Positions 7,749-50,364 of a stretch of 64,000 bases of DNA are shown here, piece by piece. The position numbers were made by a program, and so were the translations under genes. Within the stretch, counting starts at the first letter, position 1. Each line of letters opens with the position of its first letter. This DNA is from Sulfolobus islandicus Y.N.15.51 (GTDB lineage Archaea > Thermoproteota > Thermoprotei_A > Sulfolobales > Sulfolobaceae), in contig NC_012623.1 in assembly GCF_000022485.1 (NCBI RefSeq), forward strand, positions 992,001 through 1,056,000, given 5' to 3'. Below the pieces are notes generated by a model. The model was given only the letters and a program-made list of their open reading frames with translations, searched no databases and was not told the origin of the DNA.

Positions 7749-8393
7749 ATGCCGGACTTCAAAATTGTCATTTCAGATCCACAATCTGTAGAGCCTAAAA
7801 GAATAAAGGTTAAAGTAAAGGCAAATGACCAAATAAAATCTATAGCTGGAGAAAAGGAAGGAAAAGCGGTACCCCAGGCTAAAGTTAATGAGAAAACTAA
7901 ACAATTATTAAATATTGATACGCTCATTACATTAGAAATAACCAAACAAGAAGGGGATAAAAAGGTAAAGGTAAAAAGCCATTTTAAGGTTGAAGTAGAT
8001 AACAATGTACCAGATAACGAAGTATGGATAAGTAAAACAATGGCAGAGAAGTTTGGAGCAGAAGATTTTGAAGCCATTGCATATAGGACTAAGACGTTAC
8101 AAATAAGTATTGATCAAGACAAGGCTACAAATCTAGTTGGTCTAAAAATAGGTGATACATTTGAAGCTAATCAACTGATTGGATTACCAGTTAAGTTAAA
8201 GATAACTGGAGGATCAGATAATTCTGGATTCCCAATGCGATTTGATGTTACTGGAGCGGCTAAGCGTAAAATATTGCTAAGTGGGCCTCCTGGATTCTAC
8301 CCGAATGAAGATGGAGAAAGAAGAAGAAAAACTATAAGAGGAAATACCATTAGCCAAGAAATAGTTCAAATTAATACCATAATAGTAAGGTGA
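7749..8393 (+). CDS. rps6e: 30S ribosomal protein S6e (eS6)
   Basis: The 214-residue protein contains the S6e core: [13 protein letters not shown] at the N-terminus, [35 protein letters not shown] near residue 128 and [31 protein letters not shown] near 173. It is longer than the roughly 130-residue form of many archaea because of an inserted or extended region at about 20-115, a length I recall for Sulfolobus. A GGTGG sequence at 7735-7739 lies 9-10 nt before the ATG. The aIF2-gamma gene follows at once, pairing two small-subunit functions. Confidence 0.93.
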
Positions 8394-44002: not shown

Positions 44003-44221
44003 ATGAGTGCAGAGTTAAAACGCAAAATAATTGACATCGTATCTAAAGGTGATAAAACGTCCACACAAATAAGGGATGAACTAATTCAAATGGGGGAGGA
44101 GATTAATTTATTGGAATTTAGAAAAGTTCTAGCGAATTTAGTTAGAGAAGGACTATTAGAAAAATATCCAGTTTATAATGAAAGGAAATTTTATTTTCGA
44201 CTTAAGTCAAAAAGCTATTGA
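44003..44221 (+). CDS. small winged-helix protein
   Basis: The 72-residue protein is a minimal winged helix: LKRKIIDIVSKGDKTSTQIRDELIQMGEEINLLEFRKVLANLVREGLLEKYPVYNERKFYFRL. The helix 3 segment (NLLEFRKVLANLVREG) and a two-strand wing are visible and nothing else is present. It is probably a DNA-binding regulator; the target is unknown. The 98 bp before it are extremely AT-rich. Its end overlaps the nbp35 gene tail to tail by 7 bp. Confidence 0.72.
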   Translation: MSAELKRKIIDIVSKGDKTSTQIRDELIQMGEEINLLEFRKVLANLVREGLLEKYPVYNERKFYFRLKSKSY

Positions 44222-45105
44222 TTGGATTCAACAATTTTAATTACTTTGTCAGCTATATTTAAGAATTCTTTAGAAGTTGGACTGTCTGGATGTTTCAAAA
44301 AGAAGGGTTCTCCAGCATCATTAGCTTCTGCTATGGAAGGATCAAGAGGAACTTGACCTAAAAGGTCTACTCCCATTTCCTCTGCCATTTTCTTACCTTT
44401 ACCTTCTCCAAATATATAATAGACTTTCCCATCACTTGGGCATACAAAATGGCTCATATTTTCAACTACACCTAATATTTTTGTGTTTACAGTTCTAGCG
44501 AAATTTATTGATTTCTTAACAGCTAATGTGGAAACTTCAGATGGTATTGTAACGATAACAAATCCTGTAATGCCAGGAACTAATTGAGCAATGGACAAAG
44601 CTTCATCTCCAGTCCCTGGGGGCATATCTATTATCAGATAGTCCAATTCTCCCCAATTAACGTCACCTAGGAATTGTTTTATCGCTGAATGTTTTATGGC
44701 TCCTCTCCATACTACTGGCGTATCGTCTCTAGGTAATAGAAAATCTATGGAAACAACTTTTATTCCGAAAGGCCCTATAACTGGATTTATTCCCTTATCA
44801 TCGGCAGTTAACATTTGTCCTCTAACGCCTAACATTTTTGGCACTGATGGTCCATGGAAATCAACATCTACTATACCTACTTTTCTACCGCTCGCAGCTA
44901 TAGCCATTGCTAGGTTAGATGAGACAAATGATTTACCAACTCCACCTTTTCCACTAACTACTCCAATCTTATATTTTATATTTTTCATCTTCATTTGTAC
45001 TTTTAGATCAACAGCTTGAACTTGTTGGTTAACCTTTCTTAAATCACGAGGCTGTCTTTGAGGTTGTGGCTGAGGATTTTGAATTCTAAAAGGATTACTG
45101 CTCAT
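44215..45105 (-). CDS. Mrp/Nbp35-type P-loop ATPase (Fe-S carrier family)
   Basis: The 296-residue protein has a deviant Walker A GVVSGKGGVGKSFVSSNLA near residue 54, switch GIVDVDFHGPSVPKMLG near 79, LIIDMPPGTGDEALSIAQ near 157, and the Mrp signature VVENMSHFVCPSDGKVYYIFGEG near 222. Mrp/Nbp35 proteins bind a bridging Fe-S cluster through a CxxC pair, and here that place reads CPSD, with only one Cys. It may still bind a cluster across the dimer in another way, or act as a pure ATPase. It is the last gene of the protease operon and starts directly after fap7. Confidence 0.88.
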   Translation of the reverse strand: MSSNPFRIQNPQPQPQRQPRDLRKVNQQVQAVDLKVQMKMKNIKYKIGVVSGKGGVGKSFVSSNLAMAIAASGRKVGIVDVDFHGPSVPKMLGVRGQMLTADDKGINPVIGPFGIKVVSIDFLLPRDDTPVVWRGAIKHSAIKQFLGDVNWGELDYLIIDMPPGTGDEALSIAQLVPGITGFVIVTIPSEVSTLAVKKSINFARTVNTKILGVVENMSHFVCPSDGKVYYIFGEGKGKKMAEEMGVDLLGQVPLDPSIAEANDAGEPFFLKHPDSPTSKEFLNIADKVIKIVESNQ

Positions 45106-45669
45106 CTAGATATCATTCTCATAGGAGCTAATAATCTTATCTAATTCCTCTAAAAATCTTTGTACTTTTGTATCAACTAACCATTCTATTGGTCCATCAC
45201 ATTGTTTATTTAGTATTTTATTTAATATTTGTTCTGTACTCATTTCTGTGGTATCTACTTCACACACCTTATCCTTAAAGGCTTCTCTAGCCTCTTGTGA
45301 GATCACTCCTAGAATTTCTGCCTCCACGTTCTCAGCTACTTTTATATCAGCCCAACCCCTTCCTTTTAGTTCATTATATAGAGAAAAAGGATTCTTCCTA
45401 AGGACAACTACTAAGTCAGCGGTAGATACCAATGAAGGGTATATAGTTTCAATCACGAGATGGCTAGTTGAAATAATTTTCTCTAATTCTTCCTTTACTT
45501 TATCCTCGTCTATTATATAACTTTGCCTAAGTTCATCATATTCCGTATAAAGTTTATTTTCTATAACAAATTGGGAAAGAGAAAGATAGTTTAGATTAAG
45601 CGCCTCAGAAAGTTTCTTTGAAGCTACGGTTTTTCCCACACCGGGTGTGCCAGTCACTATTATTATCAT
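45106..45669 (-). CDS. Fap7/AK6-like adenylate kinase
   Basis: The 187-residue protein has the P-loop [18 protein letters not shown] at residues 3-20, [15 protein letters not shown], and [35 protein letters not shown] near 90, matching Fap7/AK6. In archaea and eukaryotes these proteins release ribosomal proteins during small-subunit maturation and show adenylate kinase activity. Its ATG overlaps the stop of a 54-residue membrane protein as ATGA. The link to the membrane proteases upstream is unexplained. Confidence 0.9.
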
Positions 45670-45830
45670 TGCTTCACTACTAATATCGTTTCAATTGCAA
45701 ATAAAACTATTGAAATCCCAACAAGGGTTATCTTCACAGCTCTATCTGCCTCACTTTTGATAATTTCATACAAACCGTATGGGAGCATTAAGAATCCTAT
45801 AATTAATAGTATTTCCTCTACTAATATCAT
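45666..45830 (-). CDS. very small two-helix membrane protein
   Basis: The 54-residue product starts [20 protein letters not shown] and contains two hydrophobic segments (about residues 4-20 and 33-50) separated by a charged loop, [12 protein letters not shown], and ends VVKQ. It begins 2 bp after the rhomboid stop codon and its stop overlaps the fap7 start as ATGA, so it is a true operon member. I do not recognise a family. It could be an adaptor or inhibitor of one of the membrane proteases; that is inference from position and size. Confidence 0.8.
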
Positions 45831-45832
45831 AA

Positions 45833-46417
45833 TTATTTTATTGTCCTTCCACTCCTTATAAGGTAATAGACAACTGCGTACATAATACCTCCCAAAATAC
45901 CTCCGATATGAGCAACAACGTTCACATTAGGGAATATTAAATCACTAACTCCAAATACCGATACTAAAAATACAAGACCATAAACCCCTAAATTATCCTT
46001 TTTTAAGAAATCGTAAAACGTGTAGTAACTTAATAATCCAAATATTCCCCCAGACGCTCCCGAGCTTAGTGTAAAAGGACTATAGAATATTACAGTTAGT
46101 AGATTTCCTAGAATACCAGCTAGGATAAATATACCATATTCATGTTTTCCCGCTCTACTACCAAAAATTAAATATATAACATATAATGAAATAAAATTAA
46201 ATATAAAATCAACAAAGCTATTAGTTATAAATATTGATGTGAATAGTTCGTAATAATACCCTTTAATTACTAAGTAGTTTAATTGTTCTAGATAATATAA
46301 TGAGGTAGAATCTATAAAAGTTGCTAATAAACCTACCATAAAACCCAAAGTAACAAGAAACATTAAGAAAAAAGTTGATATACCTATTATTTTTTTTATT
46401 ATCACTTTATTCACCAT
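45833..46417 (-). CDS. rhomboid intramembrane serine protease
   Basis: The 194-residue protein has about six membrane segments and the rhomboid catalytic pair: Ser in TLSSGASGGIFGLL (near residue 121) and His in NVVAHIGGILGGIMY (near 169). It cleaves membrane proteins inside the bilayer. I chose ATG 46417, which overlaps the stop of the site-2 protease gene in TAATG; a longer frame from 46477 would lie inside that gene. Substrates are unknown. Confidence 0.92.
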   Translation of the reverse strand: MVNKVIIKKIIGISTFFLMFLVTLGFMVGLLATFIDSTSLYYLEQLNYLVIKGYYYELFTSIFITNSFVDFIFNFISLYVIYLIFGSRAGKHEYGIFILAGILGNLLTVIFYSPFTLSSGASGGIFGLLSYYTFYDFLKKDNLGVYGLVFLVSVFGVSDLIFPNVNVVAHIGGILGGIMYAVVYYLIRSGRTIK

Positions 46418-47019
46418 TATAGAAATGTTAGTGCGAATGCAATGATTATCAATACTGCCCACACTATCATGTTCCATCTAAAGATCTTTAATCCGTCTAA
46501 AACCCAGAATGGAAGCAAGTTAAAGAATGCTACCCAGAAGTTAAACCTAGCTAATTCAAAGAAAAATAAGCCAACAAGGCTAAAAGGCACTAACGATGCA
46601 CCAATAAGGCCAACAAATCCTACTATTATGTTAGTTAGAGGTCCAGCTAGAGCTGTTTTTCCCTCAACGTCTCTATTAAGAAATCCACAAGATATTGATG
46701 TGTATCCCGAAAAGAAAACTAAGATACCTACGAAGCTACCAATTATATTCAGTATTAACGTTGTCCAAAACCCTGAAAAACTTAAAGTAAATCTAGAGAA
46801 ACAACCATATCTTCTCGCAGCTTGTCTGTGGCCTATTTCATGTGGTATTATAGCTAATAATGCTACGATATATGGTATGATTATACTACCTATTGGATCT
46901 GAAAGTATGGATGTTGGGCGTATATAAGCTACTGCTAAAGATAAGGCAGCAAGTAAAAAGGAAGTGATCTCATTTAGGTTGGCGAATCTCCATTCTAAGT
47001 ATCTTATATCCCAAGACAT
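46417..47019 (-). CDS. site-2 protease-like membrane metalloprotease (M50)
   Basis: The 200-residue protein has several membrane segments, the zinc motif HEIGH (ALLAIIPHEIGHRQAARRYG, His residues near 59 and 63), and the third-ligand motif as NLLPFWVLDGLKIF near 173, where LDG matches the S2P N/LDG. The GPLTNIIVGF block near 123 is also typical. It is a short form with no PDZ or CBS domain. Site-2 proteases release membrane-bound regulators. Directly downstream and coupled to it is a rhomboid protease. Confidence 0.92.
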   Translation of the reverse strand: MSWDIRYLEWRFANLNEITSFLLAALSLAVAYIRPTSILSDPIGSIIIPYIVALLAIIPHEIGHRQAARRYGCFSRFTLSFSGFWTTLILNIIGSFVGILVFFSGYTSISCGFLNRDVEGKTALAGPLTNIIVGFVGLIGASLVPFSLVGLFFFELARFNFWVAFFNLLPFWVLDGLKIFRWNMIVWAVLIIIAFALTFL

Positions 47020-47021
47020 AC

Positions 47022-47645
47022 CTATCTTATTAATCTTAACAACTCTGAGGGTATTAAATTATTGCTTACATATCGAATGTTTGTACTATCTATTTTCCAT
47101 AATAACGCTTTTTTGTCATTACTGATGGTTGCCATGTAAATATTTCCACTTAAGTTTATTATCCCTTCAAATATTATGTCAAATAATCTTTTGAAGGAAT
47201 TAAAGGTATCAAAGATTACTGATCTATACATAAATGGCATCGTAATTTTTAGACAAATATATCTTTTTGCTAAAATTTCAATTAAGTCCTTAGAGAAATC
47301 GTTATAGAGTTCAGGTCTCAATAACGTTATTTGCGCATTTCCTTCAACGTTTATAATTATAACTAACATTTTTCTTGTCTGATTAGTTACGGATATCCAT
47401 ATCTCAAATATCCTTAGGACGTTCTCACACTCATCACTTATCTTTTTAGCTGGCAAGAAAAAAGAATAAGTTCCATTATTTTGAGTTACAGCATCTATTA
47501 GTCCCTCTGCAAAAAGTTTCGATGAGACCCCTATTAAGGACAATTCCTTTTCAAGCGAAGGATTTAATTCTACTACATGCCCATCACTTGTAAGTACCTT
47601 TCTCCCTATACCTTGTAGGTAATCTACAGTGACTTCGAATCTCAC
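47022..47645 (-). CDS. hypothetical protein of the protease operon
   Basis: This 207-residue protein matches no family I know. It is mixed alpha/beta without membrane segments, starting RFEVTVDYLQGIGRKVLTSDG, with a beta-rich centre (MLVIIINVEGNAQITLLRP) and a C-terminal part ending NNLIPSELLRLIR. There is no signal peptide, so it is probably cytoplasmic. It ends 2 bp before the site-2 protease start and follows a 52-residue gene by 19 bp, so it belongs to the same operon. A regulatory or adaptor role for the proteases is possible but unproven. Confidence 0.65.
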   Translation of the reverse strand: MRFEVTVDYLQGIGRKVLTSDGHVVELNPSLEKELSLIGVSSKLFAEGLIDAVTQNNGTYSFFLPAKKISDECENVLRIFEIWISVTNQTRKMLVIIINVEGNAQITLLRPELYNDFSKDLIEILAKRYICLKITMPFMYRSVIFDTFNSFKRLFDIIFEGIINLSGNIYMATISNDKKALLWKIDSTNIRYVSNNLIPSELLRLIR

Positions 47646-47664
47646 AAAAATAAAATAGTGTACA

Positions 47665-47823
47665 TTAAACTTTTATATATTTTGCGTATATCTCTGCATT
47701 TAATTCCATGTTCTTTGCCAATACTTTTTCGAGTACTTGTTTATCCTCAGCGGATGGATTATAATTCTTTATGATAGATTCGATTTGTTCCAACAGCCTT
47801 AATACATCTTGTATACTTTCCAT
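47665..47823 (-). CDS. 52-residue helical protein, first gene of protease operon
   Basis: The product starts MESIQDVLRLLEQIESIIKN and ends AEIYAKYIKV. It looks like two amphipathic helices joined by NYNPSAEDK. No family is recognised. Coding is supported by the length of the open frame, its regular hydrophobic spacing and its position: it lies 27 bp from the divergent MMPL gene and 19 bp before the next operon gene. It may form a small helical hairpin that binds the operon's hypothetical protein. Confidence 0.65.
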   Translation of the reverse strand: MESIQDVLRLLEQIESIIKNYNPSAEDKQVLEKVLAKNMELNAEIYAKYIKV

Positions 47824-47850: not shown

Positions 47851-50364
47851 ATGGTTACCAATGTAAAATTGGTATTTCCACAATACTTTTTACTGTATAT
47901 AAAGTCTAGGAATAATGTGAAGAATGGACTTGTATCGTTGGTATTATGGTTATTACTGATTATGATATTATTGCATTTTGCAATTAAAACTCCTAGTTTA
48001 TTTACGTATTCGGATTCCCCATTCTTGTCAAGCAGCGTACAAAGTGTAAGGGCTGATAAGATAGTAACCAATTACTTTCACATTGGCAACGTTGATAATC
48101 TGTATATTATTATCAATTCCTCGTCTTATAACCAAGCTTTACAAGAAATTTATTCTAATTTATATCTCCTTAATAACGCTACGGTGATAACTCCCAACGG
48201 TTACGTTAGCATGCTTAAGACAGAGTATCTCAGCTACCTTGGCTTAAATGAGAAGAATTTCTCATCTACGATAAGCCAGTTGTATGAGAATTTGACTCGT
48301 TTGAAACTTTATTTAATTTCAAATTTTCAATACTTTGAATATCAGTTAAATATTACATTTGGTCTTCCACTTCATAATTTCACTAGTAACATATGCCCTA
48401 CCTATAAGGAAAATTTTGATAAAGTTAATGGAAGTTTACTAGAGAAAGCTAGATATGCGGGATACTTAACCTTTAAAGATCCATTTCTTTTCTACTTTGG
48501 ATTTAATAATTACACTAATTACACTTTGGCATTAAAGTTTTTGATACAGTTTAATAACTACACTAGTCTAATCGAAAGGATACTTAAAACTCAAAACATA
48601 ACGTCTGTTAATGAAAGCAATGTGATTTTTAATAATATAACTACAGCCTTTAACTCATCCTTTCATAAGGGTACTTTATGGCTTTTCATTATAAATGTTC
48701 CTAGCAATGAAAGCCTAACAAATATTAATCAATTTACTGAAAGTCTCAGAAACGCCTATGTAATAGGTCACCTAGCGTATTATGCACAATCCGCATATTA
48801 TACTCAAAGTAACGTTGAAATTATAGATATAACTACAATTATTCTTGTAATGATATTACTAATACTGTTAGTTAGATCAATTGTTCCAATTCTGATTTTA
48901 ATATCTAGTGCTGGTACTAGTCTTTTATTAGCTTATGGTCTCATGTACATGGAAACGCTTCTAGGTTATAAGATATATTATATTTCGGGTTTGGTTGCAC
49001 CTCCAATTGTATTTGGTCTTAACATTGACTATGGCATATTACTCATATATAGATATTTTGAAGAAATTAATAAAAATAATTTAGATGCTCTCCTATATGC
49101 GCTTAAAAATTCAATAAAAGGTATACTATTAAGTGGTATTAGTATCACGATTGGGTTCTCCAGTTTTATCCTTTCCCCTTCTGCACTACTTCAAAACATA
49201 GGAATAGCGTTAGTGACATCTTCCATTTCAGCATTAATACCAGCAGTTTTCTTTACGTACACGTTATTGCTCTTAATCCCTCAAAGATATCTTAGTTTTC
49301 CTAGACGAAAATTACCGAGTATTACGGATATAAGGCAAAGGTACTTATATAAGCTTTCCAACTTTGCAGTAAGGCACAATAAGTTATTAGTAATTCTTAT
49401 GCTAGTTTCTATCGTTATCTTTATCTTTTATTTTCCTTCTATACACACCAACGTTAATATAGATGAAATATTACCTCCCCATGCAAATTCACTTGTAGGT
49501 ACAAAGGTTCTTAATCAACTTTACAATTATAGTATAGACTATATTATATTGTATGGAAGCCCTAAGGCTAACTACACTCTCATTTATAATTTAACTAAAA
49601 CTCTTATAGATCAAGGTAACTTAGTTTATGGACCAATGTCCTTAGGTTCTCAGATCATTGTCAATAATAGCAACTTATATGATCACTTTCATCAAGGAAA
49701 TTACACCTTGTTGATAATTTACCTAAAGTACCCTGTATTTAGCAATGGCGCTATAAATTTAACAAATTGGCTCATAAGCAAGGGATTCCTAGTTGGAGGG
49801 GATAACGCACAAAGAATAGATATCGTTAATAATACCGTTAGTACTTATTTTAGCTATACTTTACCACTTACTATAATTTTAATTGTCATTTACCTCTTCA
49901 TGATTCTCGGATCTATTCTACTTCCCTTGAGGTTATCCTTAACTGTAGGTCTAAGCTCATTATTGGGAGCATTTACAGTGGCATTAGTATATAACTCGCC
50001 ATATTGGCTATCCCCACTTGTAATTTTTGCCCTTCTTTTCAGTTTAGGTATAGACTATGATATGTTCATAATCATAAGATTATTTGATGAGATGAAAAAC
50101 GACGATGACATAAATAGTGCTATAGTAAGATCGGTAGAAAATACTGGATTAGTAGTAACTACTTGTGGTTTGATTTTAGCCGGAGCCTTTTTCTCATTGA
50201 TGGTGGCAAATATGAGATTCTTACAAGAAATAGGTCTAGGTGTAGGAGTCTCAATACTGTTTGATACTTTTGTAGTTAGGCCTATTCTAGTACCTGCAAT
50301 TATTTCAATTCTGAAAAAATATAATTTTTGGCCATTTAAGGCGAGAAAATTTCTTTATACTTAA
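47851..50364 (+). CDS. MMPL/RND-superfamily membrane transporter
   Basis: The 837-residue protein has the MMPL plan of about twelve membrane segments in two halves, each with a large outer domain (residues 55-325 and 520-665) rich in N-x-S/T sites that may be glycosylated. The proton-relay motifs are visible twice: FGLNIDYGILLIYRYFEE near 390 and SLGIDYDMFIIIRLFDEM near 733. Relatives move lipids, hopanoids or drugs; here archaeal lipids or glycolipids are plausible, but no substrate is evident. Its end overlaps thiR tail to tail by 29 bp. Confidence 0.9.
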   Translation: MVTNVKLVFPQYFLLYIKSRNNVKNGLVSLVLWLLLIMILLHFAIKTPSLFTYSDSPFLSSSVQSVRADKIVTNYFHIGNVDNLYIIINSSSYNQALQEIYSNLYLLNNATVITPNGYVSMLKTEYLSYLGLNEKNFSSTISQLYENLTRLKLYLISNFQYFEYQLNITFGLPLHNFTSNICPTYKENFDKVNGSLLEKARYAGYLTFKDPFLFYFGFNNYTNYTLALKFLIQFNNYTSLIERILKTQNITSVNESNVIFNNITTAFNSSFHKGTLWLFIINVPSNESLTNINQFTESLRNAYVIGHLAYYAQSAYYTQSNVEIIDITTIILVMILLILLVRSIVPILILISSAGTSLLLAYGLMYMETLLGYKIYYISGLVAPPIVFGLNIDYGILLIYRYFEEINKNNLDALLYALKNSIKGILLSGISITIGFSSFILSPSALLQNIGIALVTSSISALIPAVFFTYTLLLLIPQRYLSFPRRKLPSITDIRQRYLYKLSNFAVRHNKLLVILMLVSIVIFIFYFPSIHTNVNIDEILPPHANSLVGTKVLNQLYNYSIDYIILYGSPKANYTLIYNLTKTLIDQGNLVYGPMSLGSQIIVNNSNLYDHFHQGNYTLLIIYLKYPVFSNGAINLTNWLISKGFLVGGDNAQRIDIVNNTVSTYFSYTLPLTIILIVIYLFMILGSILLPLRLSLTVGLSSLLGAFTVALVYNSPYWLSPLVIFALLFSLGIDYDMFIIIRLFDEMKNDDDINSAIVRSVENTGLVVTTCGLILAGAFFSLMVANMRFLQEIGLGVGVSILFDTFVVRPILVPAIISILKKYNFWPFKARKFLYT

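Follow-up and report, generated by a model that had tools for sequence, protein, structure and literature searches.

A family-wide pairing of site-2 protease and rhomboid genes within an operon-like unit of the Sulfolobaceae

The described systems that stand closest to the locus considered here are those of regulated intramembrane proteolysis (RIP; S1P-S2P, RseP, SpoIVFB), the site-2 protease (S2P) MJ0392 (3b4r, M50B) and the rhomboid proteases GlpG of E. coli and H. influenzae (S54), with the active sites of the two enzymes expected, from the structures of GlpG and S2P, on opposite faces of the membrane. The locus itself is a unit of seven genes in a stretch of 64,000 nucleotides from Sulfolobus islandicus Y.N.15.51 (hereafter the window, within which all coordinates are given), where the gene of a minimal S2P is followed directly by that of a short rhomboid. 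With RIP systems the unit shares the presence of an S2P, but it is without the usual soluble-domain site-1 protease or an anti-sigma-like substrate, and it is a rhomboid that adjoins the S2P instead. The pairing of the genes for these two unrelated intramembrane proteases is real and extends across the Sulfolobaceae, a family of thermoacidophilic archaea, and it is probably functional. Literature searches, from whose scope subscription papers mostly fell outside, returned no description of the unit. For archaeal rhomboids and S2Ps in general, almost no substrates are known (PMC4343526). In order of transcription, the genes of the unit are the following.

47665..47823, minus strand: g52 (52 residues), a soluble helical protein; open reading frame (ORF), conserved placement, purifying selection
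47022..47645, minus strand: g207 (207 residues), a soluble alpha/beta protein of a Sulfolobaceae-only family; ORF, presence throughout the family, AlphaFold2 model
46417..47019, minus strand: minimal site-2 protease (200 residues), M50, with about 5-6 transmembrane segments; PF02163, MJ0392 match, motifs
45833..46417, minus strand: short GlpG-like rhomboid protease (194 residues); PF01694, AlphaFold2 model, motifs
45666..45830, minus strand: g54 (54 residues), two predicted transmembrane helices and a conserved PYG-x-YE motif; ORF, placement, purifying selection
45106..45669, minus strand: Fap7/AK6-type kinase (187 residues) with an altered Walker B (E-T-I-Y-P, not D-x-H); matches to 4cvn and human AK6
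44215..45105, minus strand: Mrp/Nbp35-type P-loop ATPase (296 residues) whose CxxC reads CPSD; PF10609

All of these ORFs, which a preliminary description had placed at 44215-47823 on the minus strand as a tightly packed set, were found again with the same coordinates and strand, the junctions running from a 4-bp overlap to a gap of 19 bp. The widest gap separates g52 from g207; 2 bp lie between g207 and the S2P, the S2P and rhomboid genes overlap by 1 bp (TAATG), such that the rhomboid start lies within the S2P stop codon, and a further 2 bp precede g54, which overlaps the kinase gene by 4 bp (ATGA), the kinase and Mrp genes abutting at 0 bp. In the Sulfolobaceae sample (31 genomes, 11 genera) all seven genes stand in this order in 25 genomes, one of which carries an interrupted rhomboid, and in the three genomes of genus g5 only the 52-residue gene is missing, so that the order g207-S2P-rhomboid-g54-kinase-Mrp is fixed in 28 of the 31. 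This is far beyond chance, and the same strand, short gaps and conserved order expected of a single operon are all found.

With respect to the two proteases, the S2P is present in every one of the 31 genomes and the rhomboid in 29, and in each of these 29 the rhomboid directly follows the S2P on the same strand. The preliminary description, which would have been refuted had the proteases not been neighbours in related genomes, was thus put to a check that it could have failed, and the gene order did not refute it. Beyond the family, within an order-wide sample of 117 genomes, a rhomboid and an S2P of this type are present together in 76 genomes from other families, and in none are the two adjacent (places were compared by eye), the closest being some 2.3 kb apart in genome G026; the neighbours at 20 S2P loci of these other families are unrelated genes. 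Nor, in the flanks examined, does an S2P-like ORF accompany the rhomboids of Nitrososphaerales, Heimdallarchaeota or bacteria.

More telling than the shared order is what happens where that order breaks down. Rearranged units occur in HS-7 and in two genomes of genus g60, three genomes that occupy the basal branch in the tree of the S2P. Mrp is missing from the vicinity of the HS-7 unit, whose g207 and kinase genes lie on the other strand; its S2P and rhomboid genes are still adjacent, with a 3-bp gap. Save for one distant window gene (37727), the flanking genes of the window are absent from the 16-kb stretch around the HS-7 unit, and it is the absence of the immediate flanking genes that makes this arrangement the better evidence. 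The gene g207 also adjoins the S2P in all 31 genomes, including those of rhomboid-less g60 and, inverted, HS-7. In other words, it is S2P-g207 and S2P-rhomboid that the basal clade has in common with the rest, while the adjacency of kinase and Mrp would be either younger or lost in that clade. HS-7 additionally carries a 64-residue ORF (L129 6020-6214) between the rhomboid and the g54 homologue, which we take to resemble the Sul7d chromatin protein.

The divergence of the two proteases points in the same direction. Pairwise protein divergence was compared as partial correlations controlled for Mrp and the TrmB protein, over 15 gene pairs and in four genome samplings, and S2P-rhomboid came top of the 15 in each sampling (0.67, 0.62, 0.63 and 0.49); for g207-S2P the values are 0.27-0.37. 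It is because the adjacency survives the rearrangement in HS-7, and because the divergence of this pair is the most correlated, that a functional link between the proteases is likely. Purifying selection acts on all seven genes: in comparisons with congeners at a moderate distance, dN/dS is about 0.01-0.19 where computable, the closest relative offering too few changes for firm values.

The assignment of the two enzymes, which had at first been made from their motifs, is borne out. The S2P matches PF02163 at 37.3 bits (cut-off 27.2) without any extra Pfam domain, and its H60-E61-x-x-H64, N167-L168-x-P170 and L174-D175-G176 motifs are invariant in an alignment of 16 orthologues. The sole PDB entry matched by its profile is 3b4r (E 3.7e-6), that of MJ0392, with which it has in common the HExxH and LDG motifs and about six transmembrane helices; the alignment, however, covers profile positions 123-186 only, and, in contrast to MJ0392, the protein here is of 200 residues and sits in a rhomboid-containing unit. 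The rhomboid, for its part, matches PF01694 at 62.5 bits (cut-off 22.6), and G120-A121-S122-G123-G124 and A169-H170 are likewise invariant among 16 orthologues. Its AlphaFold2 model (pLDDT 88.5) matches GlpG in Foldseek with a probability of 1.00 and a TM score of 0.67-0.72, and model and motifs together agree with what is expected of the family, a GxSG serine and a sixth-helix histidine in a six-helix GlpG fold. The likeness to the GlpG proteins of E. coli and H. influenzae lies in the predicted fold and the Ser-His dyad motifs, while identity is about 16-21% and the protein here is short. A longer, 214-residue rhomboid ORF opening at an ATG inside the S2P gene was considered and set aside, the alignment favouring the 194-residue form with its start at 46417.

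In the tree, the Sulfolobaceae rhomboid groups with those of Nitrososphaerales (99/93), apart from the larger rhomboids that the rest of its order carries, a placement which suggests that it was acquired by replacement or transfer. The idea that rhomboids are absent from the order outside the Sulfolobaceae was ruled out, the Pfam model revealing larger rhomboids in most genomes; for the most part these proteins are only distant relatives of the one here. As revised, the claim is that this rhomboid is of a Sulfolobaceae-like type that is unlinked to S2P elsewhere. Rhomboids of the Sulfolobaceae type also occur in two Thermoproteus genomes (L125 4459-5031 and L127 694-1257), nested in the Sulfolobaceae clade, and these are likely to reflect transfer, or mis-binning in a metagenome-assembled genome.

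None of g52, g207 and g54 gave a family match. In the first sample of 15 relatives, g52 is in place in 13 and g54 in all 15, and from their low dN/dS it follows that these two small ORFs are genes. The gene g207 is present in all 31 Sulfolobaceae, and it turned up nowhere among 285 further genomes sampled from the phylum. Its AlphaFold2 model is of high quality (pLDDT 90.2, pTM 0.85), and comparison with libraries of solved and viral structures gave no clear match, an absence that says little about the fold. A resemblance to tri-longin proteins (Mon1-Ccz1, BLOC-3, Fuzzy-Inturned; Foldseek E 0.014) was not confirmed, the best VIA-align Z being 3.7, with unrelated proteins.

The reading that we put forward, and to which we give roughly an even chance, is that of a Sulfolobaceae-specific, operon-like unit built around a module for the cleavage of membrane proteins, made up of the minimal S2P, the short GlpG-type rhomboid and the lineage-specific soluble g207. 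The two proteases would be made together and would draw their membrane-protein substrates from one pool or from pools that overlap; from the orientations of their families, the rhomboid would open outward and the S2P toward the cytoplasm, such that the two could jointly carry out the turnover or regulation of membrane proteins from either side. The likely partner g207 may serve as a cytosolic adaptor, and g54 as a membrane adaptor or a substrate, while no function is proposed for the association with the kinase and Mrp. Gene content and order, the intact catalytic motifs, the selection, the adjacency that outlasts rearrangement and the correlated divergence are observed, whereas co-expression, active-site orientation, shared substrates and the parts played by the small proteins are inferred.

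Several points weigh against such a module. Flanking genes at about 38-54 kb also mostly hold position, in 11-15 of 15 relatives, such that the conserved order in the family crown is partly general and, taken alone, is weaker evidence than it appears; moreover, the adjacency of S2P and rhomboid arose once, and the 29 genomes are not independent. Genome pairs are similarly non-independent in the correlation of divergence, and membrane proteins may share a drift in composition, for which reason the correlation is supporting evidence only. In genus g60 no rhomboid of any kind was detected, with S2P and g207 retained together, and in genome G123 (locus L157, G123:C1:391000-407000), which shares an identical S2P with the window, an insertion of some 1.4 kb that bears a transposase-like ORF and comes with a 10-bp target repeat splits the rhomboid gene ahead of the catalytic serine; hence the rhomboid can be lost while the S2P stays. 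The two Thermoproteus rhomboids have no S2P within 4.5 kb and no other unit gene nearby. As for G123 itself, a close relative in which the rhomboid is naturally knocked out, the other six genes of its unit are open and the neighbouring ORFs are without sign of decay.

From these same points comes the case for an ordinary co-transcribed housekeeping block, in which a promoter is shared by history, the substrates are separate and gene order changes slowly: the flanking genes are conserved too, the unit mixes unrelated functions, and the rhomboid is dispensable or separable in g60, G123 and Thermoproteus. We consider this possible but doubtful, since in HS-7 the flanks are gone and the unit is scrambled, yet S2P and rhomboid remain adjacent, and since theirs is the strongest of the correlated divergences. 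Another explanation, which takes up the sequential cleavage suggested in the preliminary description, is two-step RIP: a rhomboid cut followed by an S2P cut would free a tethered factor, and the small proteins would be adaptors or the factor itself. It draws on the tandem conservation of both proteases, on the opposite active-site faces expected from the GlpG and S2P structures, and on the minimal S2P, which without an extra domain would require a first cut or an adaptor. Such RIP is nonetheless not obligatory, the rhomboid being absent in g60 where the S2P is retained, broken in G123 and alone, free of S2P, in Thermoproteus; the unit, in addition, encodes no tethered regulator, and the nearby TrmB and helix-turn-helix proteins have no predicted transmembrane segment. 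We hold it to be rather unlikely. Equally tied to sequential cleavage, and improbable in our estimation, is a dedicated two-protease system where the rhomboid replaces the site-1 protease, the S2P cuts second, and g207 and g54 are the cytosolic and the membrane adaptors or a substrate; were it true, archaea would have a cascade that runs from rhomboid to S2P. The last alternative gives the rhomboid a role in the maturation of cell-envelope glycoproteins, with the S2P link secondary, after the manner of Haloferax RhoII in S-layer N-glycosylation, and deletion of RhoII in H. volcanii does change the sulfoquinovose-containing S-layer glycan (PMC4343526). However, the AN1 zinc finger of RhoII is absent from the rhomboid here, the unit has no glycosylation gene and any closeness of the two rhomboid lineages is putative, and there is very little likelihood that this explanation is correct.

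With regard to the remaining two genes, the kinase had been taken as Fap7/AK6 (hCINAP), a ribosome-assembly kinase, and that assignment is now weakened. The protein does align with archaeal and human Fap7/AK6 (PDB 4cvn, E 1.6e-20), matches AAA_18 and reaches 113 bits against PRK03839, below the curated 152, and it has the Walker A motif GTPGxGK[ST], the pattern being missed in one relative only (L163); indeed, it is the only clear Fap7 homologue in nearly all Sulfolobaceae. Where Fap7/AK6 has D-x-H in its Walker B, however, the Sulfolobaceae kinase has E-x-I/V or D-x-L: the motif reads E-[TSA]-[IV]-Y-P in 30 of 31 genomes and D-T-L-F-P in the other (HS-7). The catalytic Walker-B histidine is thereby lost in all 31, while all 12 of the relatives aligned from other families retain it. 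In yeast, FAP7 D82A-H84A mimics deletion, and in the human protein H79G abolishes both ATPase and adenylate kinase activity (PMC4019466). Owing to the loss of the histidine, the Fap7 name and a role in ribosome assembly are uncertain for the kinase of this unit.

By the Nbp35/Mrp-type ATPase, PF10609 is matched over the whole domain at 333 bits, in likeness to the Mrp/ApbC/Nbp35 Fe-S carrier ATPases, and both the P-loop (KGGVGKS) and the NUBPL domain are found, but the second cysteine of the C-terminal CxxC, which would hold the bridging Fe-S cluster, is absent, the motif reading CPSD, CPSE or CPDS in all 16 Sulfolobaceae aligned. Many further families of the order lack this cysteine too (36 sequences checked), and its loss is thus not specific to the unit. 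The S. tokodaii gene ST0174 is cited in PMC2946596 as the ApbC/Nbp35 homologue.

Two candidate regulatory elements lie at the head of the unit.

47871..47879, minus strand: GGAAATACC element, candidate promoter or operator, about 50-55 nt upstream of the 52-residue gene
47672..47680, minus strand: TATA-like TATATAAAA, candidate internal promoter inside the 52-residue gene, about 30 nt before the 207-residue gene

Of 25 upstream regions compared, 24 contain a recognisable form of the upstream element (GGAAATACC, AGTAATACT or a close variant), and it persists in regions without the divergent MMPL gene; elsewhere in the window it occurs once more, at 8340. The MMPL-family transporter gene (47851-50364, plus strand) has an annotated 5' end that covers this conserved element; in several relatives the gap between MMPL and the 52-residue gene is about 94 nt, for which reason the true MMPL start may lie further downstream. 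As to the TATA-like element, it may merely reflect the conserved A-K-Y-I-K codons at the end of the 52-residue protein, and on account of this element the unit is best described, from its layout, as operon-like, a single seven-gene transcript being putative. Scans with bacterial promoter and terminator models, which are not applicable to archaea, gave results at chance level, and an Rfam scan of 40-52 kb found no family.

For the Sulfolobaceae, the family-wide occurrence of a Fap7-type kinase without its catalytic histidine amounts to a natural experiment on whether ribosome assembly in archaea requires ATPase or adenylate kinase activity. With respect to the proteases, a gene pair that spans the family, the genetic tools available for S. 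acidocaldarius and S. islandicus, and the natural losses of the rhomboid together offer a direct route to the substrates of both proteases and to the question of whether the two cooperate.

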